In this document: positions 16,891-47,259 of the stretch, one piece after another
Layout: each line of letters starts with the position of its first letter
Position numbering within the stretch: the stretch's first letter is position 1
NCBI GenBank assembly: GCA_963855995.1
Contig: OY979717.1
Coordinates: forward strand, 23,152,746-23,216,745
DNA length: 64,000 nucleotides
DNA from: Muricea muricata
Lineage: Eukaryota; Cnidaria; Anthozoa; Malacalcyonacea; Plexauridae
Direction: 5' to 3'
Position numbers and translations under genes: made by a program
Notes under the pieces: generated by a model
What the model saw: only the letters and a program-made list of their open reading frames with translations
Told to the model about the DNA's origin: nothing
Database searches by the model: none

Positions 16891-18638
16891 TTGAAGAACA
16901 AAATGTCAAAATGTATCAAAACCTCTCTTTCTGAGGATACAACGTCACAGCTACCATTCACTTTACGGCTTGTTTCGCATCGTGAGGTATGGGCTGAAAT
17001 CGATAAACTTCGCTCATACACATCTGCTGGTATTGACGATATACCAGTTAAATTTGTAAAACTGGCGAAAGAACATCTAGCGAGTCCTTTGCAATATATA
17101 ATAAACAATTGTATTACTCAGTCGACCTTTCCAGAAGCGTGGAAAGTTGCAAGAATTTCGATGAGTAGACCAGTCTTTGTGTAAGGCGGACTATAGACCT
17201 GTCTCAATTTTGCCAAAATTGTCAAAGCTTTTTGAGCGGCTTGTTTTAAATCAGATGATTGCGTATATTGAAGAAAGAGCACTTCTTGGAGCTACGATGT
17301 CTGGATTTAGAAAAGGGCACTCTACAGCAACTGTGTTACTGGGTATTCGGGATGCATTGATTAGAGCATCTAAGAAAGGAGAGGTAACTCTTATGGTTTA
17401 TGCAGACTACAGTAAAGCTTTTGATACGGTACAGTTCAGAACTGTTTTAACTAAGATGCACGGACTGGGCTTTTCAGAATCATTTCTGCACTGGGTGATC
17501 AATTATTTTACAAACAGACAACAGCTGGTACAGGTTAATGATGAAAAATCTAGTCTCCTCACCGTAGAATTTGGCGTACCAAAGGGTTCAGTTTTTGGAC
17601 CGATGTTCTTCAACCTATATGTTGCAGACTTACATGAAAAGCTTCAATTACCTTCTTACTAATACGCGGATGACACATCGTTTTACGTTCATTCAAAAGT
17701 ATGCGATCTAGACTCGGCTGTAAAAGAGGTTAATGATGCCATAGTATGATTGCTTGATTACTCTCAGTTCTGTAACTTAGCACTGAATTCCTCCAAAACT
17801 GATTGGATGTTATTTTCCACATCTCAAATGGCACGTGCTCATGATCTAGGCGATCGTACGTTCAGCATTAAATGTGGGGACAAATTAAATTACTTGATCG
17901 AATACGATGTAAAAATCTTTTAGGTGCTCACTTAAATGAGTATCTATCATGGTCTTCACATATCGACTCTTTGCAAACTTCGTGTTACGGAATTTTAGCA
18001 GCATTGAAGAAGTTGAAGAACTTGGCGCTCTTCCATGTAAGAAAGACGCTCGTTGAAAGCCTTGTCCTTTCCAAAATTGACTATGCTAGTCCTGTATTTT
18101 ACCCATTGCCAGTATACCAACAAAAGCGGCTTCAACGCCTTCAGAACGCATGTGCAGGTTTTGTTTTAAGGAAATTTGCAAGACAGGAAGACCTTGCCAC
18201 CTTGAATTGGCTGAGTATTAGTAATTAAGAGGATGGATTTTAATCTTCTAAAATTAACATATATGATGATCCTTTTCCAGAATATTTAAGACTATTGCTA
18301 CACTATGTCAATGCATATAGGTTAAGATCTTCTTCCTAAGTATTCCTAAGGAGTCAGGAACTTCTCAAGACCCAGCTGCAGCTACTTTTAACAAGGTTCC
18401 TGTAGAAATCAGGAATATTAACAATTATAGATCTTTTTGTCATTGTATAAAAGAATATCTTAAAAATAGTGAATGATTCCAATTTGCAATGTAATTGGAT
18501 TAGCATTCTTTTTAGATTTCGTAATTCTCGCTAAGATAGATTGTTGTATATTTTAATGTAGATAGTTTCACAGGTGAAGAGCCTTTCTGTAATGGATATA
18601 CTGTGAATAAACCTTTATTATTATTATTATTATTATTG
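16891..18638 (+). mobile_element. Truncated CR1/L2-type LINE nested in the 6.9 kb element
   Basis: The reverse transcriptase is read in pieces: an N-terminal part at 16891-17150 (SAGIDDIPVKFVK), then 17177-17662 with MVYADYSKAFDTV and GVPKGSVFGPMFF. The catalytic YADD follows a stop at 17660, and the C-terminal part is at 17872-18228 (KIDYASPVF). Frameshifts and stops make it inactive. The 3' end is a TTA microsatellite at about 18614-18638, typical of such LINEs. The 5' boundary is not clear; sequence from about 16630 may belong to it. No endonuclease domain is seen. Confidence 0.8.
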
Positions 18639-18686
18639 AACCAAAGAGATTACAATGTACGCAAAGCATTCTGGGAAATTTTGGGG

Positions 18687-18962
18687 GTTCCTTTACACCT
18701 AAAGTGCTTCTCTAGGCTTAATTGTTCGATAATTATGCACATTACTGCAAAAATATATTGATTATATATTATTTTAGGAGTATTTTGTCGGACATCGATG
18801 ACGTCATAGTTTGCATAAAATACCCCTAAACGACCACAAAAAATTGGTGCTCGTTTTTTTTAAATCGGCACTTCTAAAATTCCTAATTTCAGCAAAGAAA
18901 CCAAAATGATCAGGAAATTCCTACGGGACTGATTTTTCTTACACATGGCCCCAGACTAGTAT
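18687..18962. repeat. Right terminal inverted repeat of the 6.9 kb element
   Basis: 276-bp partner of the left repeat, starting GTTCCTTTACACC and ending CCCCAGACTAGTAT, immediately before the second copy of AGCGGTT. Confidence 0.85.
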
Positions 18963-19200
18963 AGCGGTTCGTTGTTCGGTTTTCTGTATGGTTTGTAAGT
19001 GTTGTTAGTAAGGTCAAACGTTATGCCGAGGAAGTTTGAGCTTTAATGGTTCGTGAAGGCAGTAATTTTAAGTCCTAGGTCGTTGAATATGCGCGTCAGG
19101 TCTTTTCTCGCTTTGTCGCCGAGTCTGTTGGATTTTGTATTCAGGACTGCTAGGCCAGGCATGTAGTTTTTTATGAACTTTCTGATGATATAAGTTATTT
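18963..19200 (-). mobile_element. Penelope-like element, upstream half (split copy)
   Basis: Read on the - strand it gives LGDKARKDLTRIFNDLGLKI, a stop, NFLGITFDLTNNTYKPYRK and PNNEPL at the insertion point. This is the C-terminal reverse transcriptase region of the same element that resumes at 12047. The 5' part of the element is missing. Confidence 0.65.
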
Positions 19201-19202
19201 TC

Positions 19203-19385
19203 CAGATAAACGAACTTGAAAGTTCGCGATTTTTGACAGTATAATAGTTTTATAGTAAAACTGAAGAAAAACGTGTTGACCTAACCTCACAAGAAAAATT
19301 GGGCCGGCCAACATTCAGAATTGTTTTTTTGGGCATCTTACGAACAATTTAAGAGCAAAATGAATTTACCCCTCGAGAAGGTAAG
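19203..19385 (+). repeat. Dispersed repeat, copy 1
   Basis: Resembles 58372-58545 over about 180 bp. Shared blocks include CAGTTTTATAGTAA-like, GAAAAACGTGTTG and GGCCAACATTCAG. Both copies end in a short ATG-started stretch coding for M-x-L-P-L, followed by a GTAAGT-like splice donor. Confidence 0.6.
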
Positions 19386-19429
19386 TAAAATTCCGCGTGG
19401 CGCCCTGACTATAGGCTTTAATCAATTGT

Positions 19430-20560
19430 TGACGTTGAATCGCGTTTAAAAGCTGTAAAATCGAATAAAGCACCTGATCCAGATCTTCTACCAAACTGAA
19501 TTCTTAATAACTTCTCAATGGAAATTTCAGAACCTGTGACAATCATTTTTAATACCTCCATTAAACAGGCACAGGTCCCAATGCAATGGAAAGAAGCAAT
19601 TGTCGTTCCAGTCCCAAAGACATCCCCAATCATGGACAAATTAACAGATTTACGACCTATATCCCTGACTGCTACGCTTTCAAAAGTTCTTGAATCATTT
19701 ATATTCCAATGGGTTATGGATACTGTTGCGTCTCAGTTGGAGACAAAGCAATTTGGTTCGTTGAAAGGTTCTTCCGCGGTAGACGCATTAATTAGTATGT
19801 CTCATTGCTGATATTCTAATACAGATGGCAACGGTAAAACTGTCCGTGTCTTCCTGCTTGATTTTAGTAAAGCATTTGACAGAATGAATCATAAAATCCT
19901 GATTAAAAAAATGCAATTACTAAATATTGACAAGTTCTTAATAAACTGGGTTATCGATTTTTTTATCCAAAGAAAACAAAGGGTGAGATTGGGTTCTGCT
20001 TTCTCTGATTGGTCCCTGGTGAACGGAGGCGTCCCTCAAGGTACAATCCTCGGACCACTACTTTTTCTCATCATGGTTAATGATTTAGCTATAAATCACG
20101 AAGATAGGTGGAAGTATGTCGATGACACTAGTCTCTCAGAAACAATTGTTAAATGTCGCCAAGGCAATTTGCAATCCGTTATTAATGATATTGACCAATG
20201 GTGTACAGAAAATGATATGATTCTCAATCACTCAAAATGTAAAGAACTTATTATCTCGTTTGCCAAAGACGTCCCCAGTCTTCGACCATTATTTATTAGT
20301 ATAACCCTACTTCCATCAGCAAAAGTTCTTTGATTGTATTTTTCTTCGGATCTAAGTTGGAACTTGCATGTTGAACACATAGTATGCAAGGTATCAAAGA
20401 GACTCTTCTTTCTCCGTCTCCGTGTACTTAAACGTAGTGGTCTTGGACTGAGTTCTCTAATTCAAGTCTAAACTACATGTATACGACCTTGCATGAATAT
20501 GCATGCAGGTTTGGAACTTTAATTCCCCTGACTATTTAAAGGACGAAATTGAAAGAATTA
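19430..20560 (+). mobile_element. Second LINE fragment (reverse transcriptase)
   Basis: The reverse transcriptase blocks follow in order with breaks: SNKAPDPDLLPN, then 19518-19811 (LRPISLTATLSKVLE), FLLDFSKAFDR near 19860, 19884-20333 with NGGVPQGTILGPLLF and a YVDD catalytic box, and NHSKCKEL. A degenerate C-terminal part runs to about 20560. It belongs to the CR1/jockey group in a broad sense and differs from the LINE at 16891. Stops and frameshifts show that it is dead. Confidence 0.8.
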
Positions 20561-22177: not shown

Positions 22178-22426
22178 ATGGCTAATTTGCAAACACAGGA
22201 GAGCGTATGTGCTTTCAACAACGATAAATTAAAAGAGCAGAATATCCCTGATAAGGAGACGGTTAATAAAGGGCAATGTACAAGTTCCGTAAGAGTTGAT
22301 ATGACCAGAGTGGAACGAAATGCGAAGGAAGGTAAAACCATCTGGTTCGAAACAAGTTTTGGCTTGATTGGAGCCCATGGAAGCATCCGAAAGGAGTTGT
22401 TCACTATTGCTGTCAAGCAAATTGAG
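22178..22426 (+). CDS. NOX5: NOX5 exon 1: N-terminus and first degenerate EF unit
   Basis: 83 codons, ending in phase 0 at a GTATGT donor. The first 45 residues are polar and unrecognised. Residues from about 54 (WFETSFGLIGAHGSIRKELF) have the pattern of the degenerate odd EF-hand in later exons 3 and 5. An in-frame TAA at 22169 supports this start. The exon lies 5.4 kb upstream of exon 2, so a cDNA is needed to prove that it belongs to the transcript. Confidence 0.72.
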
Positions 22427-25400
22427 GTATGTTTCAGTCAATATTGGAACGCACTTTTAATGCAATTGACTAGGAAGGCATGAAAACTATAGATTTTTAA
22501 TATTTATCCGTAGTTATTCTCAACTTTTAAGGTCGACAGTTACTGTGTGCGTATATAGGAAGTAAAATTTAGGCATTGTAACTTTCTTTGACCGCATCGT
22601 CGTTTTTGTTGGCGTGAAAGCCGCGATGTCGACAATGATAGCATTGCCTAGTTACTCTTAAACCTGGCTTGTTTTGCATATTCCTAATAGTTTTGGACGA
22701 ATACAAATATTTGCGTATATAGGCGCTTGACAAACTGATATGATTTAGAGTACCGAGTGATTTTTAGACACTTAAGTATTATATTAGATCACTGATCCCT
22801 TACACAAATCCACGAAAGCTATTCTATCTTTTTCCCTTAATCATGATGGCGGAGTCCTGTACTGTTCTCGAGTCTGGACACATAGAGCGGCGTATGCATG
22901 ATAATCCCCTGTTAAACCTGGATAATTGAGAGTTTTTAAATTAACCGCCTGCAGTGGCTCTCCTCGACTGTCTGACTGACTTACTGGAACGGCTTATATG
23001 AGACAGGTTAGCCCGGTCGGCTGGGCTGGTTTGTGTCACAAACTTAACGTTTTTTCACTTTGGGACGAAAATATTTTGGACTTTAACCACACTAAAGACG
23101 AGTTTACGACAACTAATTTAGTATTACATTAGAAGCTAAGTGCAGAGTAAATCTGCTGTAAAGCGTTTATATAGAAGAAATTAATCGGCACGTTTAACCT
23201 GGCTAATAATTATAAATGTACATTCTCTTTGAGATGGTTTAGTTTACGATAAGAGTTAATAGATTTAACAAGAGTTTTTGTTCGTTTAATTGACTGCATG
23301 GTCATGAGACCATGCACACTTGCAGTTCTCATAAATTAATCTTCGTTTATCTAGGTCTAAGACATCAATGTTTAGCTGCGAATGTCTAAAATGCTGGTTA
23401 TGATACCATGTCGATTGTTGAACGGCCATGCCGCAATTACACAATGACGGTCGCCATTTTCCTGTTAGCTGAGCGTGCAAGGCCCAATCACACAATTTTA
23501 TGAAAGATTTATCTCCTTGTTTCATACACGAGTATCGTTGTCAATTCTCGTTGCTTTTAAGTCTAATCTCAATATGTTCTCAACCTGAATGTGCAAAAAA
23601 ATAGCACGAGAAATTTGTCACATACCCTGGGCATAAGGCAAAAAATTTAACGTAGTTCTTGCTATCGCTTGCCGCCTTTGTTGATGGAGCTTGCTATGTT
23701 AATTTACTCTCGCCAGAGTGATTTTGGAATTTCATAATTGAATTTAATTAAGGATTAGGCCGGATTGTTTACATGATTTCACTAACTACACTTACACATG
23801 GAGGAGAATAGAGCCGGGGATTTTGTAGATTGAAATGAGTAACACTACATGATTTAGCAAACATGAGTTACTTCTTTTAAAGGTAAATTATTATTGCATA
23901 CTTGAAACAACGGGATGTGAAAGCAATACAACAGTAATATTGTAGAACTATTGTTGTTATATCTTTTAGCCAACATTGCAATTTCTTCGCCTGTACAGGG
24001 TGTATCAAAAAAAAGATAATCGAACTTTGCAGTGCTCTAGCGCGTTTATTATACAATCTACAGAAATCATTCTTTCGTAGGCGGAAAGACCAGGCTTTTA
24101 GCTTTCGATTGTCATCATTTTTGTGAAATTTAAAGAAAGATTGGGCAAATACGAATCAAATGAAAATAGCCGGTCGAAATCACATATTTTCACCTCTGAG
24201 CATTACTAGGGCAGCGAATAAGAAAAGAAAATTTCATTAATCATTTATCTGTCACGAGAAACAATTAACATCACTAATAAAATGCCAGAAGTTTACTACC
24301 TAAGCTAAAATTGGTCAATTAATTTCGTAATTTAATTCCCTAATGGGTTTAAATTTCAACAGATTTTTAATAAACTCCCCACGGTGAAAATATGCGATTT
24401 CGACCGGCTGTTTTCATTTGATTCGTATTTGCTCCATCTTTCTTCAAATTTCACAAAAATGATGACAATCAAACGCTAAAAGCCTGGTCTTTCCGTCTGC
24501 GAAAGAATGATTTCTGTGGATTGTATAATGAACGCGCTAGAGCACTGCAAAGTTCGATTACCTTTTTTTTATACACCCTGTATGTAAACGCACGTTACAT
24601 AGCAACGTCACAGGGAAACTTATAGTACCTGACTATCTAGAGAATGAAATATTTAACAATTAGACAAAAAGAGGCCGAGTTGTTTAATTGTTTTAGTATA
24701 CACTCTTATCCAAAATAGAAGTTGCAAAGAGAATTGAAAAAAATCACATACAGGGTGAGTAAAAAAAACTGGTACCCTTTCATTTTTAAATATTGGAAAT
24801 AATGCTATTGACAGTCCAATGTTACTGAGGGCCTGTTCATATGGGAAGAAGTTTTCCCGGTTAGCGAGAAAACAGTTCGACAAGTTTACAAGCGAGATCT
24901 CACCTTCTTACGAAAATAGTATGAAAAGTTACCCTGCGTTCATATGAGACGAAAAGTTTTCCCGTTAACCGAGATCTCGCTTGTTGACAGGCGAGATCTC
25001 GACGGGAAAATATTTGGAACATATGAACGCAACTTGTTTAGTACTTTCCCGCTTAACGGGAAAACTTTGTCCTGTCAGCAACTTTTCTCTTGACACTTTA
25101 CAAAATAGCGGACGTAGAAACTTTGACGAAAAATTTCCGTGATGAGATGGTCGAACAGTTGATAGATTTTTGCAGGCATACAAAATAGAGATGGAATTCA
25201 AAGGTTTATATAGACTTTGATGCAGACAAATGGACACAGTATACACGTCACATGTACAGCTAGAAACTTTACCAGGTAAGCAGGATAATTTTCCCCATAT
25301 GAACAGAACAAAATTAGTTGGCGAGACAAAATATTTTCTCACTAACCGAGGTAACTTCTTCCCATATGAACCGGCCCTGAACTAGAATTTTCTTGAGACG

Positions 25401-28400
25401 ACATTTTGATCTCTTTTTCACTTGTGGTATGAATGTACCGTTTTAGCCTGCTTGGTGGCTAATTTTGATGTATCAAAATCATCCATTCTCTCGTCTGATT
25501 TCTGGGATTTTCTGCATTTCTCATCCTGCTTACCGAAATCCTACAGTCCATCCTTATGCTCTTTTACAATGAATTAGTTGCGATAAAACTGTTTTATATG
25601 TGCATGGTTATAACAGTGCACGCTCGTCGAAATAATTCATTCAAACGCTGATGATCTGTACTCAATCAGAAAATCAACCTTGCGATACATTTTTCATTAT
25701 AAACTGAACTATCTTGCTGTTATTGAGACTTTATTATTGATGGTAAATACCTTAATACCTCTGTTAATTGTCTGATGCTCCAGCTGATTCCGTCCTGTTG
25801 TCTGACATTGACATACACATTTAAAGGCTGTCAGCATGCCCAGCTGTACGATTGTCATGCCGCAAACATCAAACACCATGTACATATACTAGAAGAAAAA
25901 CGTCAAGCCATGCATGCATGGAATTAGAAAAATATAATGCTTTGCTCTTAAAACAAAATATCTTAGTTTGTCTCTTTCTTTGAAAGATGAATACATGCCG
26001 CATATGTGTTTGCAAAATTACTGATATTTTATGTTTCGGAGTCAATTTCAGAAATAATAGACACCTCATATTATTCATCGTTTTTCCCGAACGGGAAACA
26101 TAGGAAACCGCTAGGAACCACGTGGTACTGTGCTTATTAAATATCTGCCACCATGTTGAATTTCGTATTTGGTACCAACGTTCAGGGGGTCGAAAATACA
26201 CGCCAATCAAATTTTATTTCCCTTCAAACATTCAGCGGCAAACCCAAATTAAAACGCCGTTTGCCATTGAAAGGATAACAAAATCCTTCAATCTTTGCAT
26301 ATCAATGGTGTACGTCCAGTATTATAATTTCAGAAACTGATAACTTCAAAAAACGTGGTTTGTGGTGTTACTCTTTGTCTGCACCCAAGCCGAGCTGGTG
26401 TGGATGTGCTTTTACTGGAGTAAAATATGCTTTTACTCGAATACCACTCGATGTTCTGCCTGCAGTCACACCAGAAACATGCATATAAAATACAAAATAA
26501 GTGACACTCCAAACAAGGATTTCATTTTGAAGCTTCATAATTATATAGGCGGCTAAGAGTGAGAAATTTAGTTGCATGTTATTAACTAATTTGATTTCTT
26601 TTGAAGCTCTGGTTCCGTGGTTGAATTCCAGTTTTGAGGCGATGGATGTATAGAGCTTCCGTGAATAATAAAGGCGACTAGTGTTAGGCTTTATCTAATA
26701 TTTTTGTATTATTTAAGATTAGATCGGCACATTAGGTAGGTCTACATGTGTAGTTTCAGGTATTTATTTTGCATTGAAAGTGATGGAAAATAGAGGTTTA
26801 TAATGTAGAAAATGTGTTGGTGAATTTCGGAGTCGGAGTTGTGTTCTTTAAACGTGTAAGGAGGCAGCGGTCAGATTTCGGCCTAATGTGTGTGTGGTTA
26901 CAGCCAGGACAAATGAGCTGGCAAACAGCTGCATGAGCTTTGTAGTTCAGGCTGGATTTTATCTTTGAGACTCAAAAAGCAATTGGTGGAGGTGGTCCCG
27001 TATAGGGTGATGAACTTGACCGGACCATTGCCCAAGCGAAATAGTTTCTTGGTGCATGAGCGAATCAGGGTGTTCGTAACATGTAACCTAATCTCTCATT
27101 CTTAGCCGCTTAACATTAATTCTCATTCCTGATGACCACTCGGGCGCGAAAAGCCGAAGACTGTGGTAGAAGGGGGACAAGAAAGGGTTGAAACAACAAC
27201 GGATAGATGGTAGATTGTAGATGTGATTCAGGAGTAGCCTGTTCTCCAACAATTTCCATACATTCTTCGCAAGAGATCTAGATGTCTTCTGCATTGTCAA
27301 ACGAAGTAGTGTCTTGCTTAAATTTGGACATCCGAAGTTAACACGAAGGCAAAAATATTTTAGCAACCTTCATCCGAACGCTTCCGACTGTCACGGGAAC
27401 AAGCTAGTCATTGAAACATTGTGCGAAAAAAGCCTATTAGAGTGTTTCATGCAAAAAACATACAAAAAATCGATCGTATATTGAATCTGCAAAAAATATT
27501 CGAAACAAAAATAAATTGTGAATTTTAAGGCATTTTCAATCATCGACCCGTCGATGTTTCAATCTTTTCTTCCTCCTTTTTTCGCGTTCCTTACATGTAA
27601 GCCATAATTTTATCTCTACGAAACGTCATGCAGAGTTATAGTGCACTGAATCAGCCGATTAGATTGAACAAACGATAATCAAGCAGTAATCAAGGGAGTA
27701 GAATTCAAGTACGTCTTTATAAATAAGTACAACATTAGTTCAACTGATGCGTAACAGCCGTAACTCATAGTGAGGTTCTCTGTGATTAAGCTGCCATCTT
27801 TTGTTATCGTTCAGGGTTTTGCAGATAATCTTTTTAACATCTTTGACTCAAACGAGCAGGATCTGTTAAGTGTTCAAGAGCTTGTTGGTGGATTTGGACT
27901 TCTTATTCAGTGAGTAGTTCGTTTTTTTCGGTGCCATATTAGTATACAAAAAATGTTGCAAACCAATGTTGAAACGTTTAAATGCCGTACCAACTACCAA
28001 GTTTGATTGCCCTATCTAATCTCTTATGCTATCAAAGATTCTCTTGATAAATCTCAGCAAACAACAGAAAACGTTTTTAGAGAATATTTAAAAGATATTT
28101 TTACAATTATCAAGACAGTTTTGGTGTGTGTGCATTACACATTTGTGTTTTAAATTGAAGGGATAAGAATCGAAAGAATGGCAAACAACTGCTTGATTGG
28201 TTTAATAACCATTTCAAGGGTAACAGTGATGAAGGATCTTACATCAGTCGAGCGCAGTTTGTGGAATATTTAAAAGATGATGAAGTAAGTGACTTGTCTT
28301 TGTTACAGAATAAAACAAACTCCGAAATTAGATATCTTGTATTCTAAATATTTAAGAAAAAAAACAAGAAGACGACGGAGCCGGTGATATTTCGTCTTTA

Positions 28401-31400
28401 TTCCAAAGACATTGTCAAACCAATGGATTAAAATACAAACAGGTTGTGCTATAGATCTACAAAGTTCTATCTTGGCAAGCTGTAGTTAGCCAATCGAGTG
28501 AAGAACACTGAAAGAATGCGTGCGTTGATGCTACCTTCTCATACCGAATCTTTTTATGCAAAATACCGGATTCGTTTCTGACGAAGGAAGGATGATGTAA
28601 AATGCATGGCTAGCACGTGCATGTAAATTTTTCTCCGCTATCAGCTGTGTTCAAACAAAGTTCAGTACATGTTTTGAGAGGCTTTTTGGTTTTCATTAAA
28701 ATTCGAAGCAACTAAACGTTGTAAGAATAGTTTATTGTAATGCTTTTGATGCACAACTTCACCTTTGTTTAATGCTAGCATATAATTTTGTAAATTTAAG
28801 TTGCATCCACAATACTAGAGTAAATACCAACCTAAAATGATCGGGCCTTGTGATAGGACTTTTGAAGCAAAAGTCATCATTGTTTGTGATTCGTCCTTTA
28901 GAAAGCTATTTTCAATAGTTTATTGTCTTTTATTCTTGGAACTGTCGGAAACTGTTGATAATTACTTACCTCTAGAATAATTACTTTGTTTTGTTCGCGC
29001 ACGTTTCACGCGTGAGAACCTTTCGAACGTTTCGGAATATGCCATTTTTTGCTTCTTTTTTTCAGGGCTTCAAACCATCTGGGATTATTTTTTGTGAATA
29101 TTATTGTAAAAAGGCGTAACGCGTTAATAAATACAACTCAAAATTGTTAAGTTGTCGAGATTTATTCAGTTCTCAACACGTGGCATCCCTACAACGGGAT
29201 TTATGTGATTTGCGCTCGCACAAGAGCAAGGATCGACGAAAACGACGTTACGCCGTAACGCGGGAAAGCGAAACGTGTGATAAGAAAGTGGCAATTATTT
29301 TAGCTATTTCTTGTTAATTCTCGGGAATTACAGGCACTAGACTTTGCATCGAAAAGAAGTCATGAAGTGATGAAAACGAATAGCAGCGAAGTGATATCAA
29401 GACACGAACAATGGATAGTAACAAAGATCAATACTTGTCATACATTAAAGGACAGTATCGAGGAACAAAAAATTTTACAAGAAGAGTCTGAAGAGCAAGT
29501 AACAGAGTGGGTGAGCAAAAGCTAAAGGAGGCTGCTGAAAAGGTTTTAGAACTACGAGAAATTAAAGAAGAGATTGTGCGAAAAACGCAAGCGGTTGAGA
29601 AAGCGGAATTTGTCAAAGAGAAGCTCATGGTTCAGCAAGAAAAACACGAACAAAAATTACGCAAGGAGTACGAGCTACTTGAGCAACAGCTGAAATTTCA
29701 AAAGGCATTGGAAGCAAGTCGTCAAAGTCAAGCAAAGACTATTTCAACAAAGCTACCTAAGCTTTCTATAACGAAATTTGATGGCAAATACGAGAATTGG
29801 TTGCTTTTTGGAATAAATTCACGGCGAAAATTGACAGTACTGATATTTCTCCGGTAACAAAGTTCGCATATTTGAAGGAACTCGTAGAATAAAAAATTCG
29901 AGCAGGAAATGACGGACTAATCCTAACAACCGAAGGTTACAGTCCAGCGAAAGGAATTTTGGAAGGCGAATATGGTAAGACTAGTGAAATTGTTAATGCA
30001 TATGTACAAAATATCATGGAGTGAACCAGTTGTCAAGAATGCCAACCCTAATGAGATAGATTTTATAAAACCTTGTTATACAACGTACAGTCGTTAGAGA
30101 CTCTAGGCAAGTTAGCGTGCTAATGGAATGGCAAGAAGTGTGTTAGAAAAACTACCTGGTATAAAAAGTGATCCAGTGAGAGGAAAAAAGGTTGGGAGGA
30201 TTGGGGCCTGGCATACCTGGTCCAAGCATTGAAATTGTGGAGAGATATTAATCCCTGTCGTGAGGAGAGTAGCAATGACGTAACAATAGAGGAACGAGGT
30301 ACACTGTTCACGGTTGACAATCCACATTATCCATATATCATCAAGTTATTCAAGCATTTGGAGGGAGTAACCATTGTGCATGATGACCCCAAACTCTTTC
30401 TACCTATTCACCTGATCCTTGGGCAAGTGATTATGCGGCAATAGAGACGGCGGAACCAGCACGTGTAGGTAAATTGGGAGAGCCTGTGGAAGAGAAAACT
30501 AAATTTGGCTGGACTTTAATGTCTCCAGGAAAGGAATTGGATCATTCGAAGCTGCTGTTAACCCAGACAAGCTACACTCACTCACGAATACAACCAAGTG
30601 ATCGAGCAACAAAAGCTAGGAAGAGGGAATAGTGGAGTTTGCCTGTGAACTCCCAGGTTTAAAAGAGTTTTACCTTCCGTACAAGCCTGTCATACGCGAT
30701 GGAGCAGAGTCGACAGAGCTCCGTGTTGTTTATGATGGATCGGCAAAGGAAAACCCACAGTCTCCTAGCCTGAACGATTGCCTGTACGCTGGACCTTCCA
30801 TTCAGAATAAGGTATGGAACGTTTTAACTCGAATGAGATTCCATCCAGTTGCACTAGCTGGGGACTTGAGACAAGCCTTCCTGCAAATTAGAATCAGAAA
30901 AGAAGAAAGAGATTGTCTGAGGATTCACTGGAAACCAACCGAGTATTCACACCCATTACAGTTAAAGGAAAGCACATTTACCGTGAAGCCTGTAAACAAA
31001 AGGTACCATGGGATAACCATGGGATGCAAAGATAACAGAGCCGCTGTCCACTGAATACCTGCAATGGGCAAAGGGACTCCGAGACAAAGTAATTGTCACA
31101 AGATCCGTAACAGTTCATAGAGAAAGTCTAGACGAGATCAAACTCCATGCGTTCGGCGACGCTAGTAAAAAGGGAGTAGCTGCTGCAGTGTATGCCATTT
31201 CCAAACAAGCGTCTGGTGTTAACGTCGGCTTGATCACTGCTAAAGCACGGTTAGCTAAACAGGATCTTACTATACCTCGTTTAGAACTTGTTTCGGCGCA
31301 CATAGCAACAAATCTGGTTTCAAACGTCAAAAGGACCATCGATGATGTTTCAGTGATATCCGTATTTGGATGGCTTGACAGTACAGTTGCCCTGCAATTG

Positions 31401-34400
31401 TTACGAAGCGCTGGAGAGTGCAAACAATTTGTAGCTAATCGGGTAAAAAAGATCCAAGAGCATCCTGAAATCACCTGACGCCATGCGCCTACACACAACA
31501 ATCCTGCAGATTTGGAAAGCCGGGGAGGCAGAGTTTCCGGTAATCAACATTGGTGGAACGGCCCAGACTGGCTGGTGCATCCATAACAATGGCCTCCAGA
31601 CATCGTTACAGCACCGACGCCCGAAAATGAGTGTGATGCAAAAGCAGTGAAAGAAATATTCAGTGCAGCCGTGCATTCCACAGATAAGTTTGACGAACTT
31701 CTCGAGAAATTCCCTTTGATGAAAACTATCAGAGATATTGCTTGGATCCGTCGATTTGTGCTCAACTGCAGAGCAGAGAAAAAGAGCCGCCAGAAAGGGC
31801 CACTAAAAACTGGAGAGATCAGCAACCAGAACACGTTTTGAATACGGCGAACACAGTCACTTCAAGGCAACCAAATATCTGAAAACAAGCTACGTCTCAA
31901 TGTTGAGACCAACGATGAAGATGGAGTCATGTATTGCAAAGGTCGAATACAAGGCGAACACCCAATATTCTTACCTGAAGTCCATCCCTACACCAAACGC
32001 ATTGCTTACAAGCGCACCTTGAACGGGGGAGTGGGCTTAACTATGACCAAGATCAGAGAGCAACATTGGATGCCGAGACTAAGACTGTTAGTAAAAAAAA
32101 ATCATAAAGGAATGTTTCAAGTGTCGACAGGGCCGTGGCTAGAGCATAAATTGGGAAGGGGGCTGTATATTCATATATTCGTGTTATGCCCGACTAATTT
32201 CTTTTGAAATTAACCCTAATGACAACTGATTTCAAGAGAAATTAGTTGGTCATAACACGAATATATGAATATACACCCCCCCCCCTAATTAACGCTCTAG
32301 CCACGGCCCAGAGTTTCGACGATTCCAAGCGAAACCAATCGCAAGACCACCAATGCGATTTCTGCCTCGAGATCGTACAGAGAGTAACAGACAATTTCAA
32401 GCCGTTGGAGTAGACTTTGCTGGTTCTATAAAACATCGAGTATCAAAGAAAACACAAGGGAAGCATATGTAACGTTATTCGCGTGTAGCCTATGTCGAGC
32501 AATCTACCTGGAAATAACGAAAACGATGGAGACCAGTGAATTTCTGCGGTCACTCAAACGCCTCATTGCAAGGAAAGGGAGACCGAACAAGATTTGTTCC
32601 GACAACGCGGGGACGTTCGAAGCTGCAGCAGCTTGGTTAAAGTACAGTTTGACGAGCAATTCAAAAACCATTTGGCCAACGAGAAGATTTGCTGGCAATT
32701 TAACTTGAGCCGCGTTCCATGGTGGAGCAGACAATTTGAACGGCTCGTAGGTTCAGTTAAATGCGCTCTTTACAAATCCATTGGGAACAGTTGGTTAAGT
32801 TGGGACGAATTGCAAGACGTATTGTTGGACATCGAAGTAACTTTAAACAATCGCCCACTTAGATATCAGGAAGATGACATGCATAGAGCTACCCACACTT
32901 ACGCCAAACAGTTTACAGTTCGTTGGTACTACCATATTACCTGATTTGGAACCTGATAATGAAAAGAATCGAGAACTCCGAAAACGAGCGAAATCACTGG
33001 AAGTGCCAAGATCATATGTGGAAGCCGGAGATGGAATACCGAGTACCTGCGTGCTTTACGAGAGAAACACAACTTGAAACACCATGGGAAGCCGTCAACG
33101 CATTCAGTAGGTGAAGTTGTTGTTAATGCTGAGTTTCCTTAGGAACATATATCTTGACAAAATATATAATGGGGGGAGGGTGTCGGAAACTGTTAATGAT
33201 TTCTTACTTTTAGAATAATTATTTTGTTTTGTTCGCGCGCGTTTCACGTGCGAGAACCTTTCAGAACGTTTTGGAATATACCGGGGTTTTTTTTTAAGTG
33301 CTTCAAACCATCTGTGATTGTTTTTTTGTGAATATTATTGTAAAAAGGCGTGTAACGCGTTAATAAATACGACTCAAAATTGTTGTTGAGATTTATTCAG
33401 GAGGCAGTTCTCAACAGAACCAATCGCTTACAGAGCTTGTTAGTCTATAGTTTGATTGCGACTCCAAAACTAAAGTTATAAAACATACAATGCGAAACTA
33501 CAATGTTGTTAGAACAGAGCGTTATCGAGCAAGAGTAAATGCAAGCGCCAAGCGACTATGAGTTGGGACTTTTGATTCGTCGACCATAATCTTCTTTTAA
33601 CAAGACTTTGCATGAATATTATATTACGGTGTCGGTCGCATCTACTGATGCATAAAACAGGGAATTATAATGATTCGACCATAATACTAGCTAGTCACGT
33701 CGATCTAATTGCTGCTTTTCGTTTTTTTAATTTTGAGGGATTTTTTTCGACATTTTTTTATTAATTGGCCATAGCCATATATATGTGCGTGCCAGCTAGC
33801 GATTTTCATTTGTATCAACGTTTTCATGATGTGGTTTGTAATTTTATTATAGTTTGTTGGTCATCTGTTCACCGTGTTTGACTTGGATGGAAACGGTGAA
33901 ATACAGTTGAAGGAATTTATTAGTAGCTTGGACAGATTGGAATGGTTAGTACAGAATATATTGCCTATCAAATTATTGACATCAGTTAGATTTCTGAAAC
34001 ATATTTATGTTTGAAAATGTTAAACAAGTATCGACGAATTCTGTATCATATTCCAGTGCATCAGTTGATAGCAAATGGTATAGATGGATAGAAGATCATT
34101 TTAACATTGACGAATCAACTAACAGGAAAATCACTTTTGAACAATTTAAAAATGCGCTTCATTTGAAAAAGGTATGTTTTGTGACGGGAAAAGTATAAAA
34201 ATACCTTGAATTTTCAAAACTCATACAAATTGCTGCGAATAGATTGAGCACCAAAAATAAAAAAAAATGATCGAAACGGATCTTTTTTGCTTAGTGCTCA
34301 CTGATAAATCAGCGACACAGCTGTGGCTAAAATTTGTCAATTTTGGAAATTAATAAAGCATTTTAACTAGTATTATGCAATAGGTGTTGTGGCGTGGCCA

Positions 34401-37400
34401 TGCCGCCCGATAAATGGGAGGGAGGGGACATATTTTACACAATTCATTTTTAAAGATACATTTATGGTCAGTAAACACGTATAACGACCACTTTCTGATT
34501 ATCAGGCAGGTCACGCAACTGAATGAGCAGTATCTACACGTGAATTCTTTACCTCCAAAAGTTGCGCTTTAGTCTTCGCAAAAAATATTTGGTGTGTTTA
34601 CCCGTCAAAATTTAATGTATACTTGAATCGTTTGTGATTGGAAGTAACTGACTAAGACACGCATTCACAGAGTACCAAGAAAAACAAAATTCCAGCGCTT
34701 GTTTTCATGACCAAGACTTTAAAATGTATAGCGCACACGAAGATGTAATACTGACTTACATAAATAGAGATTATACTGCATGGTCTGCGAGTATGGTTTT
34801 TATGCACGAGTTGTGAAAGATTACTTTCTCCCTTTTTGGCTTAAATAGTGACTTTTATTCGAAAAGCTCTTCTTTTTTTACATTAAAGCCAAAAAAACCT
34901 CTCACGCCTTCCCCACAGGGGCGGCTATGTTGTGAGAAAAATGACAATACGATTTTTTTCACTAGTGGGAAAAACCCTATAGCCCGGCATGAAAATGCTG
35001 ATATTTCACTAGTGAAGTACGGCAAGTGAAAACGCTTATTCGTTTCTCTATTAATAATAGTGAAATTTCGATATTTATTTCAGCTGTTTACCTCGAGTAA
35101 ATCTCTATATAATACTATATAATATCTTTTATCAGATTAAAGTAGGATAATATGTCGAAAGAAAGAAATGGTTTAAATTTGCTTCTGGTACTTTGTAATT
35201 TAGCTCTTCTATTTAGGAAACAGTTTGAAAATTTTTCACCATATTTTTTGCTTCAAATAATACTAAAGGCATGTCATTTGGTCTTATTTTTCCAGTCATT
35301 TTTCTCGAAACGATTCTTTTCCTTGTTTGACACGGATGGAGATGGCTCAATTGACATGAAGGAATTGGTCAACGGTTTACAAATATTGACCAAAGGAACT
35401 GAATCAGAAAAACTTAAGTTCCTTTTCAACGTTTACGATATAGATGGTAAGTTATGCGTTTTGGCCATATGCAGATCATGCACATGCCATTGACTTGGCC
35501 TTTTAATAACTAGAAAACTCTTTTAATTTTCTAATAAATATCGTTTTTTGCAACTCATGGTCTTTGACTCATCCCCAGTTCTTTAGATTAAAAGATGCTG
35601 TGTTAGCACTGTAGATAATCAGCGGAAACTCTGCCATTTGTATTTTTTGTCACTTTTCGAAACGGCTTCCAGCTTAAACGAAGTTGAGCTAAATATATCT
35701 GCATGATTCAACTATTGCAGGATGATAACAAGTTTTTATATCGCTAGGAAATGCGCAGTTTATTTTTCCAATCGATGACTGGGGACTAGTCAGCTTGACC
35801 TGATGAAGGGCGGGTGCTCAACTTATCCAATTGCGCACAAAATAGCTTCATACTGTGGATAACTATATAATGCAAACTAATATAAGTGGAAGGTGTTGTA
35901 AATTATGATTCATACAGTAAATATTCTGTGCAGGAAACGGTAGTCTAAACAAGGAAGAAATGCGAATAGTGTTACAGTCATGTGTTCAAGAAAGCAACAT
36001 AAAATTCAATGAAGATCAAATGGAAGAGCTTGTTGACGCTTTCTTTGAAGAGACAGACGCAGATCATAATGGCGAAATCACGTTTAAAGAATTTACATCC
36101 TGCTTGGCAAAATTTCCGAGTGTGGCAGAAAATCTTACAATCGCGTAAGTTTACTTACTTACAAAAGGTCAAACGAAGTTGAAATGCTTGAAATTGTTGT
36201 ATATCTAGCGTCTATGTTTAGTTTTCTGATTGGTCGAAAGCACATCACGTGCTTGTCCACAAAACATCGTGCTCCTGCCAATCGTTGGGGCTAATTTATG
36301 AACCGGTCAATAATAAAATTGGTGCAGCATGCATGCGTGTTAACCATGAAGTTCTATCGTCCATTCACATCTGTTTTCATGCTAAATGTCTGCTCGTTTC
36401 GCTTTTCGTTCCATTCCTCGATTGTTTGAAGATAAAAATACTAGGTTTGAAGATGAAGGAATAATTCCAGTGTGCAATTGACCTACTAAAAGAGTTTTGT
36501 AAGGCGAAGGGGCTTGCTTTCGAAGACAAATGCCTCGAAAAGTCCTTAAGTAAGTTATGAAGTCGTTAAGGTTACAAGACACGTTAGGTGACGTTCTTCG
36601 GAAAATCGACACCGTGCGTGTCCCAAATTTTTACTAAGAGTTTATAATTATATTTTATCTAAACGAACAATTGGTCATCATGTAACCTTAGCCGTGAATA
36701 ATTCGCCGTATATACAACAAGACACTCGTTTACTGACACCCCGGAAAACAGTGAGTTTTTCAGCCCCTCATCTACCTTGGGGCAACAAAACTCACTGTTT
36801 ACTTCGGTGCCAGACTTACATAAAGTATTTATGATAATATAGACCTTTATAGAAGCACAATTTTTATTTTCAATTACAATTAGAGCTGGTAACTGGTTAA
36901 ATCCACCAAAAGAGAAAAAAAGAAAACGTCTGACGGATCGAACTCGTTCGAAGATGCGATGGGCTACTCTCAAGAAAAATAGACTTACGGTGTTTTTTGT
37001 AATGTTGTACTTCCTCATCAATCTCGCGTTGTTTATCTGGGTTGCCATTCAAAGAAAGGATGAGGGTGGATGGGTGATTGTCGCTCGTGTTCATGGAATG
37101 TGTTTAAATTTTAATTGCATGTTCATCCTGGTTTTAATGTTGAAACACTCGCTTACGTGGTTGAGGTCAAGCAAAATTGGGAAGTATTTTCCAATTGATC
37201 ATCACATTGATTTTCACAAAGCCGTTGCTGTAGTGATATTTATACAAGGCGTTTTGCACTTTATTGGGCATCTTGGGCGATACAGTAAGTACCCGTTACA
37301 GAAAATTCACAGATAATTTCATGTTCGTGAAATTCAATGTGGAATTGTACGTGAAATTGGGGCAGGCGGAATATTAATTGGGACATTTTACATGCAAAAA

Positions 37401-40400
37401 TTAGAAATTTCCTTATCTAAAATTTATGTTACACATGTGAAATTAGTGATTCCTATGTAGAATTTAATTGACATGTGGAATTAGAACATTGCACAGTGTT
37501 AAATTTTAAGGGGAACTGGAACATTTCACCTGTGAAATTTGAATTTGCGTTTCAGATCTTTTTTCACATGTGAAAGTAGTGCTTTATATTACGTAAAAAG
37601 TCAAATATATTATGTAAAAAATAGAATTCACGTGAGAATGGACCATTCCCCAATTAGACAAAGTTTTAAATTGGAAAATAATTTTAACACAGTTGGAAAG
37701 AGCTTCCTAAATTTAGTGAAATTGTGAAGTTTGGTTGCAAAATATTGTAAAATGTGGAAAATATAGTCCTGTAAAGTTTGCAAATTTTGTATACTTTTGT
37801 ATTACGCACGGAAAAGCGTTACCACTATGTGGAAATGTGGTAACGCTTTTTCCCGCGTAATGCAGAAGTATACAAAATTTGCAATCTTTACATTACTATA
37901 TTTTTGACATTTTACAATATTTTACAACCAAACTTTACAGTTTCACTAAATTTAGAAAGCTCTTTCCAACTGTGCTAAAATCGCTTTCCAATTTGAAAGT
38001 TTGTCTAATTGGGGAATGGTCCATTGAAATGCGAAATTTTCAAAAGGGACTCGCTAGTTGATTTTGTTTTTGCATTCGCGATCCAAAAGATTGTTTCATT
38101 TTGTGATCTAGGGGCTCTCATGTGACACAAGCACTGACTCTTTCAGAACTGTTACTGGTGGTGTTGTAGTTTCCAGTTAAATATCCCCCCCCCCCGTATT
38201 CCCTGTTCAAAACATAAAATCATTACATTGTGTAGCGTATGCAGTTTAGTGTTGACCATTTTGTCACTTTATTTGTTCCAAACTAATCATTTTTAATTAG
38301 TCGTGACCGAATCGGGAATTCAAGTTTGGGAGTATTTATTCACAACAAAAGCTGGAGAAGGATGGGTCGGTGGCACAGCTGGAATTACAGGTGTATTACT
38401 GTTCATTATTTTTGGCATCATGGCGTTCATGTCTCTCCCTTTTGTTCGTCGCAGTGGACATTTCGAGGTATCAGAGTTTGGTATTTCAGATATTGTAGGT
38501 ACCCTACATAGATTTCTGGAGTAGCTACTTCAAAAACAGTGCGTTGGGGGCTAAATTGCATCGCCTTGCATTGAACGTTTATTTATAAACAAGACGCCTG
38601 CTAAGGCGTTCACTCCATCTGCCAAAACGAAAATTGGTACAAGGCTGCAACTAGAGCATTCATTGTGGAGAGGGGGGGGGGGTATATTCACTTATTTCTG
38701 TTTTGCCCAACGAACTCCTTTTTAATTAATTAAATCAATTATTATTAGGGTACCTTCCAAGGCATTTTAAGACATTGCTCGCACATCTTATGTAATCACT
38801 AAGATAACCAAAAATTAATGTCTGAGTGACTTGCCAGACACTCTGCCCCGAGTCCTAGTAAGACTACATTTTTTTAGAATTTAATTTAAATTAAAGACTT
38901 TTATAGTACATATGTTAAACAAGATCCTTTTGTCGTAATACCACCAACATATAGCTGTTTTATTTTTGGGTAGTTGCAAGTAAAGAAAATTTTACTAAAA
39001 TTGTATACAATACATAAATATATTAACCTGATAGCATAATTTAAATAAATTCTGTTGCACACTGCCTGAAGTCTCCACGATATAATTTGTTGGGAACTTT
39101 AGACTAACGTATGTATTTCTGGAATTGGAGTGTTAAATGTCTCTTACCTTTTATAAATGTATGAGATCCCACAAGCAAATAAATCATTTTGCACGAAATA
39201 TCAGCATCTCAACATAGGTAGAACCGTAGAAATAGAAAACCAAGGAAAGAAATCACAACGAATATATACTTCGTGATTAGAATTAGGAACACATTTCCTA
39301 GACTCACTCTTTGATCATGGATTGATGGAGTCTATAAAAATTTACCGTTTTAAAACATTTCTGGAGCAATGCTTTGATAAAGAACCTTCCTGTCTTTTTT
39401 TGCTAACTATTACATGTTAAAAATTGTGTTTTGTATATGGATATTTCAGTAGAATTTGCGTTTAATTCTTGTGTAGAAATTTGCAAATTTCGTAAATGTG
39501 GAAACACAACAGAAAATGACGGAAACACGCTCTCAAAATTTCACCGCGCAACCAATCCGAACGTTGTATTCCAATAAAATTGCTGGTTACAACGTTTGAT
39601 AATTCCAGTAGTTACTGGAATTGTCATTTCATGCATATAAAATGAACCTGACTCAGACCCGAACCCTGACCCTAACCCTAACAATCCCAATAATTTATTG
39701 GAGACAATAATTTCATTGGGATACAACGTTCGGATCGAGTGCACCGCGATAAATCGCTCCTCGGTAAAGTTTCGCGGTAGAATTTGTCGTTTTAAAACGT
39801 TTTGCATGAGCATCTTTGCACGTAAAACCTTGCGGTTTAGATGTTCTAACATACATGTTAAAATGCGTGTTTTGTTGACATATTCCGCTAGAAATTGACT
39901 TAAACGTCGTGTTCAGGTTGGCTCACGCGACTTGTGCCCAGCGGTATCACCCATGAGCGCTGCACCGACTTCTGACACCGAAAAAAAAAATTTAAAAAAT
40001 AAGAAAAAATAATAAGAAAAAACCCAGAAACGGAGCGAATTTAAAACTCCACCTCGCCTACGACAGGCGGAGTAAAAACAGAGACGGGGCGAATTTAAAA
40101 CTCCGCCGAGTAACAAGACCAATTTTCACCATTATGTAGCAAACTCACGTGCCACCTAAACTGCATAGAACAAACTGATTTCTAAGATTGCCGACGTGGA
40201 CATCCCATTATGGCAGCGACAAGAATTATTTCGCTTCATTTTTTAAATGCCTCGATAAATTAGCTGTATGTATTGAATAGCGTGGAACAAACATACTTAC
40301 AGGTTCGTTAGGCACGGGATTTGACTTTGACGTATAGAGGATAGCTGGAGGTTTCCCAAATTTACCGAGCAAAGCAAGGTGTTGTCGGGAAACTTTCAGC

Positions 40401-43400
40401 CGCCTGAGGGGCCTCCCATCCCCAGCTCACTGAACCTGCAAGTATGTTTGGTTCTTATCTCATGCCCGCGTTGCATTGTTCAGTCCTCTATGAATAAATT
40501 GACCAATTTTACTAAGAGATTGATGCACTCTAATACATACGTACGTACGATACGTACGAGATTGATGTACAGTTGAAAAGTTTTGTTTTTCCGTATGTTT
40601 ACAGATGTTCTTCTACACACACCATCTCTTTGTGGTCTGGTGGACACTTCTTATTCTCCACGCACCGAACTTTTGGAAATGGTTTATTGGTCCTGCAATA
40701 ATATACGTTGTAGAAAGGATTGCCAGTTTGAGTATTGTGAACAAAGCTCGTTATGGAAAAACGTTTATCAAGGAAGGGATAATTTTCCCGTCTAATGTAA
40801 GCAAAATGAGGTTTTTTACGCGGTAGAGTGACATATAGCAGTCACTCGAATACTACACGATTGTTTGTATGCGCACAAATATCTTGCATGTCTCTTGAAT
40901 ATTACAAATAATTACTAATTTCCTTCAGGCTAAACCATTGCAAAATTTCTTAGTGAAGGTACAGAAAAGTGAACCTAAATAGGAATTAGTGAATTCACAT
41001 CGTATCCCCTTAAACTATCAATGTAAATTAAGCCATTCTCTCGTAAGGTTACGTTTAGTCATAATAATATAACAACACTCCTGTTTACCAACTTAATGTT
41101 TCTTTTTTGCTCAGATTTGACTGATCTTCACTGGAGACAAAAATAGGACACTGGGAGGGGGTAACATTAGGGTCAAAAGGATGTGTTTCTGGACATAATG
41201 CTTTTAAGAGATTCGTCACACAGGGGTTTTCGGCCAGAGAGTAAAACCGTAGTAAAATATTAGCAAGCAATTTTAATAATTCTCTATGAATTGCAGGTCA
41301 CTCACATAATCATACCACGTTCACAAAATTTCAAGTACAAATCTGGAGACTACGTTTTGGTAAATATACCAAGAATCGCTAAATATGAATGGCACCCGTT
41401 TACAATCAGCAGTTCTCCGGAGCAGACTGAAACAATATGGCTACACATTCGAGCAGTTGGAACATGGACAAAAAAACTTTATGATTACTACAAAGCACAA
41501 TCAAATTCAAAAGAAAATTTTAAAACAAAGTCAAGATCTAGAAGGAAAACAATATCTCATATAATCAGAGAAGAAAGGTATGACAGATAATATAATCAAT
41601 ATATGTATATATGTATATGTATATATATGATATTATATATATTTATGATATTGTGATGCTACTCCGAGTTTAAGCCACACTGGGCAGGCTGAAAAATTTG
41701 TCTGGCCACAGCGGGATTCGAACCAGCGACCTTTAGGATACCAGGCTTAAACTCGGAGTAGCATCACAATATCATAATATCATATTTACCCGAGTACAAC
41801 ATCACCATTAGTATATATATAATTTAATTAGAGTATTGAAGGAACTGGTATTGAAGGAACTAGACTCTGTTCCGAAATATCACTTATCGAACCGTCCTGA
41901 CCGTGTAGCTCAGTTGGTAGAGCGTTGGGGCTAGTATTCCAAAGGTCGCTGGTTCGAATCCCGCTGTGGCCAGGCAAATTTTTCAGCCTGCCCAGTGTGG
42001 CTTAAACGCGGAGTAGCATCACAATATCATAATATCATATTTACCCGAGTACAACATCACCATGTATATATATGTATGTATATATGTATATACGTGTAGT
42101 ATCTAGCAGTAGTATATCTCAGATGTGGCAAATGAAAACAGCTATATGATTGTTGGAAGATTTATATATGGAGGGTAAATGTGTCTTAATCTCGAGTGAA
42201 AATCGTAGATGGCTAAAAAGGTCTGAAGATGAAGGTTATAAATATTTTAAATTCATAGATAACGTTTAGCCTTCGTGTTCGTTTTTGATAGATTTTGTAT
42301 TTCAGTTTAATATCTTTTTTTTCTGTAACTTAAAGGAACAGTTTAAATTACCTGAGACAACGGAGAATGCCCAGTTCTTTGAGAGAAAGGCGGACGACGA
42401 ATAACAATAATAATAGGCTAAATTTAAGCGGGAACCAAGATAACGGAGATAAAAGACAAAGCACACTTTTTCCCGTTAATGAAGAAAACGGCCTAAATGC
42501 GGTTGAATTGAAAACTGTCAGTCCTGATTCCAGTTTCGTGAAATCAACGGATACTGAATTTGGACAATTAGAGGTGAGAAATTGGCATTCATTTTCAAGT
42601 GGCAACTTGACCACCCCCATCCCCCCCAACAGCAACTCAGTATAAACTGTAGTCGTTGAATTGCGGTAATGTTTTTGAGCTCGTGAGACTCAACAAAGAA
42701 ACAAATTTCCAACCTTATTCATAGATAATTTTAAAAGTGTTGACTATTTAAGTGAAAAATTATAACCATAGCCAATTGGAATATAATCATTATTTATATG
42801 ATGTAATAATTTACAAGGCAGTCGTTTTTTAATCATGATTTCATCAGCTTCAACAATTTCCCGCGATGTTTTGAACAATATGTTACAGGATAACTGTAAG
42901 ACTATGCTGTTGTGGCCTTTGTTATGTAAAAATGGCAAAAGTATCCTTTTTGCTTCAAAATCAAACATTCGTAAACGATATTGCTATGTTATACGATGTT
43001 ATTAGAAATGTCCTTACGATCATTTTTCAAAAGAGCAAGAATTACATATGATAAATCTGTCAGGAGGATAAGCCTTTACACTCCACTTGTTGTACATATT
43101 GTGCGGTGTTTTGAAAAAAACCCATGGCCAAGACATAAAGATGAATCATTAAAATTTTAGTTAGTTCCCTATTCAGAGGCCTAGCTGAACACCATATAAT
43201 TTCATATTTTCAATTATACCAACCTAGCAGAGCTGTAAGAAACCAAACCGGTGCAGATTTCCAGAATGAAATTTGGTTAATATAGTTTCACCGCTCATGC
43301 AAGCTGTTCGTGAAATAAATTTGCCCATTCTCACATCGCAATGATAGTGCAATTGTATATATGTGTCTTGCACATGCCGAAAACAGTTGGTCTTCTACCA

Positions 43401-47245: not shown

Positions 47246-47259
47246 TATATGATTCAAAG

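Follow-up and report, generated by a model that had tools for sequence, protein, structure and literature searches.

The window analysed here, a 64,000-nucleotide stretch of the anthozoan cnidarian Muricea muricata (assembly GCA_963855995.1, contig OY979717.1, positions 23,152,746 to 23,216,745), contains what its sequence identifies as a gene for a NOX5-family calcium-activated NADPH oxidase, with a calcium sensor that appears to have four EF-hand lobes against the usual two, the extra lobes having arisen by duplication of an odd-even exon pair; the probability of this reading is put at about two in three. Three EF1-EF2-type lobes (exons 1-2, 3-4 and 5-6) would be followed by the EF3-EF4 lobe (exons 6-7) and the usual oxidase, for a predicted total of about eight EF units. 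The gene is a real structural variant of NOX5 that is probably expressed and functional, and calcium-dependent superoxide production is predicted for it.

Fifteen joined exons, separated by GT-AG introns throughout, form one open frame of 976 residues (phases of introns 1-14: 0,2,0,2,0,1,2,1,0,0,2,0,0,0), and would together constitute a single mRNA. An earlier note on this DNA had described the seven exons at 22178-36144 as the sensor part of a NOX5; eight further exons, from a reading of the downstream DNA as far as 52000, carry the frame to a TAG at 46249. Compared against 177635 distinct solved-chain sequences, the protein matched human NOX5 best (732.7 bits, E 6e-219), with DUOX1 next at 244.6 bits, in agreement with the identity proposed earlier. 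All Pfam oxidase domains exceeded their cut-offs, namely PF01794 (Ferric_reduct, residues 429-551, 48.5 bits), PF08022 (FAD_binding_8, residues 595-783, 74.9 bits) and PF08030 (95.2 bits), and Pfam recognised EF-hands as well. The alignment with human NOX5 begins with human residue 3 opposite residue 188 of the query, which is encoded by the first complete codon of exon 5; exons 1-4, which have no counterpart in human NOX5, are therefore extra. From residue 188 the protein is collinear with human NOX5, with EF1-EF4 directly before the oxidase, as had been proposed for exons 5-7; residues 681-766, between two human-aligned parts, are themselves unaligned. Human NOX5 (PDB 6sz5, 8u85-8u87) thus shares with the window protein the four-EF core, the transmembrane and dehydrogenase domains, the HTCPSC motif of the NADPH-binding domain and a REFBD-like segment, but the window protein has approximately 187 more N-terminal residues and four more EF-like units. 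The REFBD-like segment is identical at 13 of 24 positions to human stretch 638-661, which is taken to be the human REFBD by counting along the alignment, on the assumption that the isoform numbering corresponds. DUOX1 is likewise a calcium-dependent oxidase and its EF-hands align to EF2-EF3, but its peroxidase domain is not in the window protein. A DUOX identity was rejected on the difference in bits and on the finding of no peroxidase-like Pfam family in the 976 residues (E up to 1).

Exon-pair duplication is the best account of exons 1-4, resting mainly on pair-level similarity and the intron register. By local alignment score, pair 1 (exons 1-2) was closest to human NOX5 EF1-EF2 (68), followed by pair 3 (exons 5-6; 52) and pair 2 (exons 3-4; 47), while pair 2 was closest to pair 3 (89), with the human pair at 72; pair 3 and the human pair scored 168. 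Among nine lobes, human NOX5 was again the best match of pair 1, the runner-up scoring 48, and the leading matches of pair 2 (calcineurin B 77, the cyanobacterial NOX5 L001 75 and human NOX5) all fell below its score with pair 3. The EF3-EF4 lobe was considered as the copied source and rejected, as its scores in the window and in human NOX5 (34 and 27 with pair 1, 60 and 51 with pair 2) were below the EF1-EF2 scores, and the earlier claim of an N-terminal extension by EF1-EF2-type units is borne out at the pair level. A profile of exons 1-4 placed on human NOX5 gave 27.9 bits at EF1-EF2, 6.2 at EF3 and 5.9 at EF4, and among the best 60 of its 466 matches to solved chains only NOX5 had a best stretch spanning both halves. 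Adding pair 3 to the profile brought NOX5 to first place, an expected outcome given that the two are orthologous.

The introns repeat in step with these pairs. The phases of introns 1-5 run 0,2,0,2,0, for which the chance is approximately 0.004-0.006 under simple, animal-like phase frequencies, and exons 2+3 and 4+5 measure 219 and 207 nt; the exon boundaries, phases and lengths given in the earlier note all held for the seven exons. Exons 2 and 4 both end in phase 2, at 65 nt counted from the first loop residue. In the odd exons the distance between the helix Phe and the exon's 3' boundary is 72 nt for exons 3 and 5 but 69 nt for exon 1, whose loop is shorter by one residue. In exon 6 no intron interrupts the sequence at the 65-nt point, because the exon continues into EF3. 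Each putative copy has the same intron phases (2 and 0) in near-exact nucleotide register.

Individual units were supported to differing degrees. A profile made from human and bacterial NOX5 EF2 only, without window sequence, was searched against 2188 window open reading frames (ORFs), of which 1587 were scored, and its three top hits were, in order, exon 6, exon 4 and exon 2 (29.0, 16.1 and 11.6 bits); exons 3+4 also exceeded the cut-off of Pfam EF-hand_1 (26.1 against 25.4 bits). For the odd units, W[FIV]x3Fx9Ix4F had two matches in the 2188 stop-free six-frame stretches of the window (exons 3 and 5) compared with 0.03 per shuffled window, and W[FIV]x3Fx(8,9)Ix4F added exon 1 only (3/2188; 0.1 per shuffled window, 60 shuffles), although these figures are flattering in that the pattern was taken from exons 3 and 5 and human NOX5 after the exons had been seen. 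Exon 3 resembled human EF1 (z 4.0, 0/500 shuffles) and exon 5 (z 2.2, 16/500). Chance ORFs were rejected as an explanation on the EF2-profile ranks and the odd pattern against shuffles, and no further EF unit elsewhere in the window was seen in the top EF2-profile or odd-pattern matches, nor any further perfect loop. The sequence thus points to five clear EF units (exons 4, 5, 6, 6/7 and 7), a well supported one in exon 2, a moderately supported one in exon 3 and a weaker candidate in exon 1, which is indicated by pattern, position and register. The earlier count of about eight EF units stands to that extent.

Several results weigh against exon-pair duplication or against parts of it. Exons 1+2 had no significant Pfam EF-hand, the highest-scoring EF model reaching 12.1 bits (E 0.18), and within exons 1-4 the search with EF-hand models that had been suggested as a check was thus positive for exons 3+4 only. 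The odd-unit profile missed exon 1 (rank 1187 of 1548 window ORFs) and, with exon 3 left out, placed exon 3 only eighth of 1494 (3.0 bits). Against human EF1, exon 3 and exon 5 the exon 1 unit scored 22-23 (z 1.3-1.6, 42-61/500 shuffles) and pairwise it was nearer to EF3 (28, z 3.8, 1/500 shuffles), which counts against rejecting copying from EF3-EF4. The short pattern W[FIV]x3F was not special (16 matches against 12.4 in shuffles), nor was a looser long form (10 against 7.2), and of the W..xxF units described earlier only the long pattern is particular to exons 1, 3 and 5. Pair 1 against pair 2 was the weakest EF1-EF2 pairing, with 3/1000 shuffles reaching its score. The one-mismatch loop of exon 2 would not stand out alone: of six such loops in the window ORFs, four lie outside NOX5. 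The exon 3 acceptor tttaaattgaag is weak, with little pyrimidine tract, and in codon usage exons 1, 2 and 4, and also the certain exon 5, were not separable from stop-free intron stretches (7-11% of controls). Exon 3 by this measure is coding-like, its value being reached by 0.03% of control stretches.

The even halves taken alone also present a difficulty, as it had been set down beforehand that copies in exons 2 and 4 nearer to unrelated EF-hands than to exon 6 would speak against duplication, and this was found. With exon 6, exon 4 alone scored 65, a value exceeded by budding-yeast NCS-1 EF2 (81), fission-yeast NCS-1 (70), calcineurin B (69) and HPCAL1 (66). For exon 2 alone the score with exon 6 was 51, and KChIP2 and human NOX5 EF2 both gave 57. 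Some excess over exon 6 is expected here, the rival hands being the best from a large library. By whole-chain score with the exons 1-4 profile, NOX5 was only 18th, with NCS-type proteins on top. These scores, along with that of pair 2 with calcineurin B, would fit a capture of exons 1-4 by exon shuffling from an NCS- or calcineurin B-type EF-hand gene. Such an origin is nevertheless regarded as quite improbable, given that whole pairs score best within NOX5 (pair 2 with pair 3, pair 1 with human NOX5), that the odd pattern is common to NOX5 EF1 and that the intron register is that of exons 5-6. As pairs the copies come out nearer to one another than to EF-hand genes of other kinds, but exons 2 and 4 alone do not, and pair 1 and pair 2 are only weakly alike; the even exons by themselves do not prove an origin. 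The proposal that a single exon pair was repeated is accordingly supported in part, at the level of pairs and not at that of the even halves.

The predicted gain in calcium sites is smaller than that in domains. Perfect EF-hand loops by PROSITE (no mismatch) number four in the protein, in exons 4, 6, 6/7 and 7, and within single-exon ORFs three were found in 56825 window-ORF positions, all in exons 4, 6 and 7, the EF3 loop being missing from this count because an intron splits it. The exon 2 loop has one mismatch, at position 5, and Asp for Gly at position 6; the other one-mismatch loop in NOX5 is in exon 5. There are thus five loops at 0-1 mismatch in the even and C-lobe units, and three odd units besides. 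In passages of PMC9421330, NOX5 EF1 follows a calpain-like rule with Ala or Val at X, an acid at Z and Glu at -Z. Exons 1, 3 and 5 have Leu, Gln and Gln at -Z and do not follow it, and the Gln of exon 5 in place of the last Glu is a listed difference of the window EF1 from human NOX5. Since the odd loops of exons 1, 3 and 5 are without the expected calcium ligands, four or five calcium sites are predicted and not eight; for human NOX5, four are described in parts of PMC7317449. The number of domains would consequently have grown much more than the number of calcium sites. The extra loops are, as had been noted, one canonical (exon 4), one weakened (exon 2) and two degenerate (exons 1 and 3).

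An alternative is that the main product is a short NOX5 with four EF-hands, begun either at an ATG at 34007 within intron 4 or in a first exon that was not seen, with exons 1-4 a rare isoform or decaying. This ATG is in frame and open into exon 5, the loops of exons 1-3 are degenerate or weakened, and a 4.5-kb retrotransposon of BEL/Pao type occupies most of intron 3. The element has broken reading frames, a Pao Peptidase_A17 domain (81.7 bits) in one of the five of its ORFs scanned, and two long terminal repeats (LTRs) of 236 nt that are identical at 206 of 225 ungapped positions and flanked on both sides by GAAC. However, the intron 4 ATG has T at -3, whereas the start codon of exon 1 carries A at -3 together with G at +4, with an in-frame TAA 9 nt upstream; the calcium loop of exon 4 is perfect; exons 1-4 all have GT-AG boundaries and an open frame; and intron 4 is just 112 nt long. 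Within the first 245 residues Met occurs only at positions 1 and 42, both encoded by exon 1; unless there is another first exon, the main frame therefore has to begin in exon 1, which ties exons 1-5 together. A short isoform with four EF-hands from 34007, beside or instead of the long form, is possible from the sequence, but that a short form is the main product, with exons 1-4 rare or decaying, is considered unlikely.

The age of the duplication bears on a further proposal, compatible with exon-pair duplication, that the NOX5 of the animal ancestor had more than four EF units and that vertebrates lost them. Pairs 1 and 2 are about equally far from pair 3 and from the human pair, whereas pair 3 and the human pair are close (scores above), and PMC7564065, in the part available, reports by SMART five EF-hands in NOX5 of Nilaparvata lugens, Apis and Tribolium. 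The same source has four in three other insects, the sample in passages of PMC9421330, which includes 13 cnidarian NOX sequences of all kinds, has at most four, and rapid divergence after a recent copy would look identical. A tree of EF1-EF2 pairs (11 rows, 69 columns), with pairs 1 and 2 on long branches, did not reject a single clade of window units (p 0.58) or a grouping of pair 3 with the human pair (p 0.46) and cannot tell between these options; together with the insect counts, this leaves any dating of the growth, or its assignment to this lineage, without support. Recent, lineage-specific growth is not supported by the sequences, in which the divergence of the extra copies looks old, and an ancestral set of more than four units is given clearly less than even odds. 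The insect proteins resemble the window protein in having N-terminal EF-hands beyond the usual number, a likeness drawn by description from a SMART count only, and if the fifth insect hand were exon-4-like the extension would be older than the window lineage.

Ten bacterial NOX5-like relatives were found, seven of them with full-length ORFs (L001-L007), which like the window protein have an EF1-EF4 region with a 14-residue odd loop followed by the oxidase. In the full-length ORFs, EF-pattern loops at 0-1 mismatch number two or three, and no such loop precedes the EF2 position. They are not a clean outgroup because cyanobacterial NOX5 was likely transferred from eukaryotes, according to passages of PMC9421330, in which cyanobacterial NOX5 is the only bacterial one treated. 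Three of the relatives (L006, L007 and L010) are EF-domain NOX5-like proteins in metagenome-assembled genomes of a bacterium and spirochaetes, outside the cyanobacteria. Among cnidarians, NOX5 is absent from hexacorals and present in octocorals according to the portion of PMC13069887 available, and passages of PMC5372347 give none in Nematostella or Hydra. No report of a cnidarian NOX5 with extra EF units was found in the open-licence literature by title and abstract start, which is no proof of absence. The sponge DspNOX, as described in part of PMC9524095, is a NOX5-like oxidase with EF-hands and, as in the window, an N-terminal extension, but one made of other elements. Four EF-hands are a typical number and not a strict definition, and the window protein, while departing from it, is not thereby excluded from NOX5.

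Features of the Muricea muricata NOX5 gene, with positions in the window
Feature	Position	Strand	Description
Exon 1	22178..22426	+	Start codon, ~54-residue N-terminal leader, candidate degenerate odd EF unit 1; GT donor, phase 0
Exon 1 odd unit	W at codon 56, genomic 22343	+	Pattern WFETSF...I...F
Exon 2	27815..27909	+	First even EF unit; its loop DSNEQDLLSVQE (27845-27880) is weakened
Exon 3	28161..28284	+	Degenerate odd EF unit 2, moderately supported; strict pattern W[FIV]x3Fx9Ix4F
BEL/Pao-type LTR retrotransposon	28943..33416	.	In intron 3; non-coding for the NOX5 protein
Exon 4	33853..33944	+	Second even EF unit; its loop DLDGNGEIQLKE (33880-33915) is canonical
In-frame ATG in intron 4	34007..34009	+	17 codons ahead of the first full codon of exon 5
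Exon 5	34057..34171	+	Odd EF unit 3, equivalent to human NOX5 EF1; aligned from human residue 3
Exon 6	35296..35446	+	Even EF unit 3, equivalent to human EF2, canonical loop 35329-35364; first part of EF3
Exon 7	35934..36144	+	Remainder of EF3; EF4 with canonical loop 36056-36091
Exon 8	36884..37284	+	Linker; first part of transmembrane domain
Exon 9	38301..38467	+	Transmembrane domain
Exon 10	40605..40796	+	Last part of transmembrane domain
Exon 11	41297..41577	+	FAD-binding domain (FAD_binding_8)
Exon 12	42336..42573	+	Mostly the stretch without human NOX5 alignment
Exon 13	43794..44003	+	NADPH-binding domain with HTCPSC motif
Exon 14	44123..44395	+	NADPH-binding domain with REFBD-like segment
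Exon 15	46118..46249	+	C-terminus, stop

Other elements were observed around and within the gene. Upstream lie reverse transcriptase fragments (17165-20330), with RVT_1 at 61.9 bits at 19812-20330 and a stretch similar by eye at 17165-17659, and downstream on the same strand is a single-exon HEXIM gene (50989-51861, PF15313, 127.8 bits). By eye, a structure resembling a small terminal-inverted-repeat element is seen in intron 1 at 24000-24580, where two long arms in inverted orientation end near 'caccctgta', and similar words come back near 46600-47250; intron 11 has at 41650-42060 an inverted pair of tRNA-like stretches ggttcgaatcccgctgtggccag, like a tRNA-derived short interspersed nuclear element.

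The probable route to the sensor is that phase-compatible introns let an odd-even exon pair be copied with the frame kept, and that the copied pairs later diverged far. In human NOX5, as described in passages of PMC11088703 and PMC7317449, calcium binding opens the EF3-EF4 lobe, the REFBD segment is released and EF1-EF2 moves toward the membrane, with the N-lobe having the lower calcium affinity. As the C-lobe and the REFBD-like segment are kept, the EF3-EF4 switch acting on the dehydrogenase is presumed conserved and should work as in human NOX5. Each extra lobe would have one calcium loop, good in exon 4 and weak in exon 2, beside a ligand-poor partner hand, and the two may serve as additional N-lobes of low affinity, either tuning the calcium threshold or docking the sensor to the membrane or to partner proteins. 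An altered calcium threshold, as with all function, the folding of the exon 1-4 units and the duplication route, is inferred from sequence.

In passages of PMC9421330, calcium-dependent NOX proteins are given up to four EF-hands, with numbers differing probably by loss and not gain, and growth of the NOX5 EF-hands as proposed here would run counter to that statement. A broader and rather doubtful suggestion is that NOX5 sensors also grew by N-lobe copying, perhaps before the split of cnidarians and bilaterians, such that the vertebrate form would be a trimmed one and four-lobed sensors would occur in invertebrates. NOX5 is a calcium-switched source of superoxide without need for a partner subunit, and the extra N-lobes of the Muricea protein would constitute a natural experiment relating the number of EF-hands to the calcium threshold.

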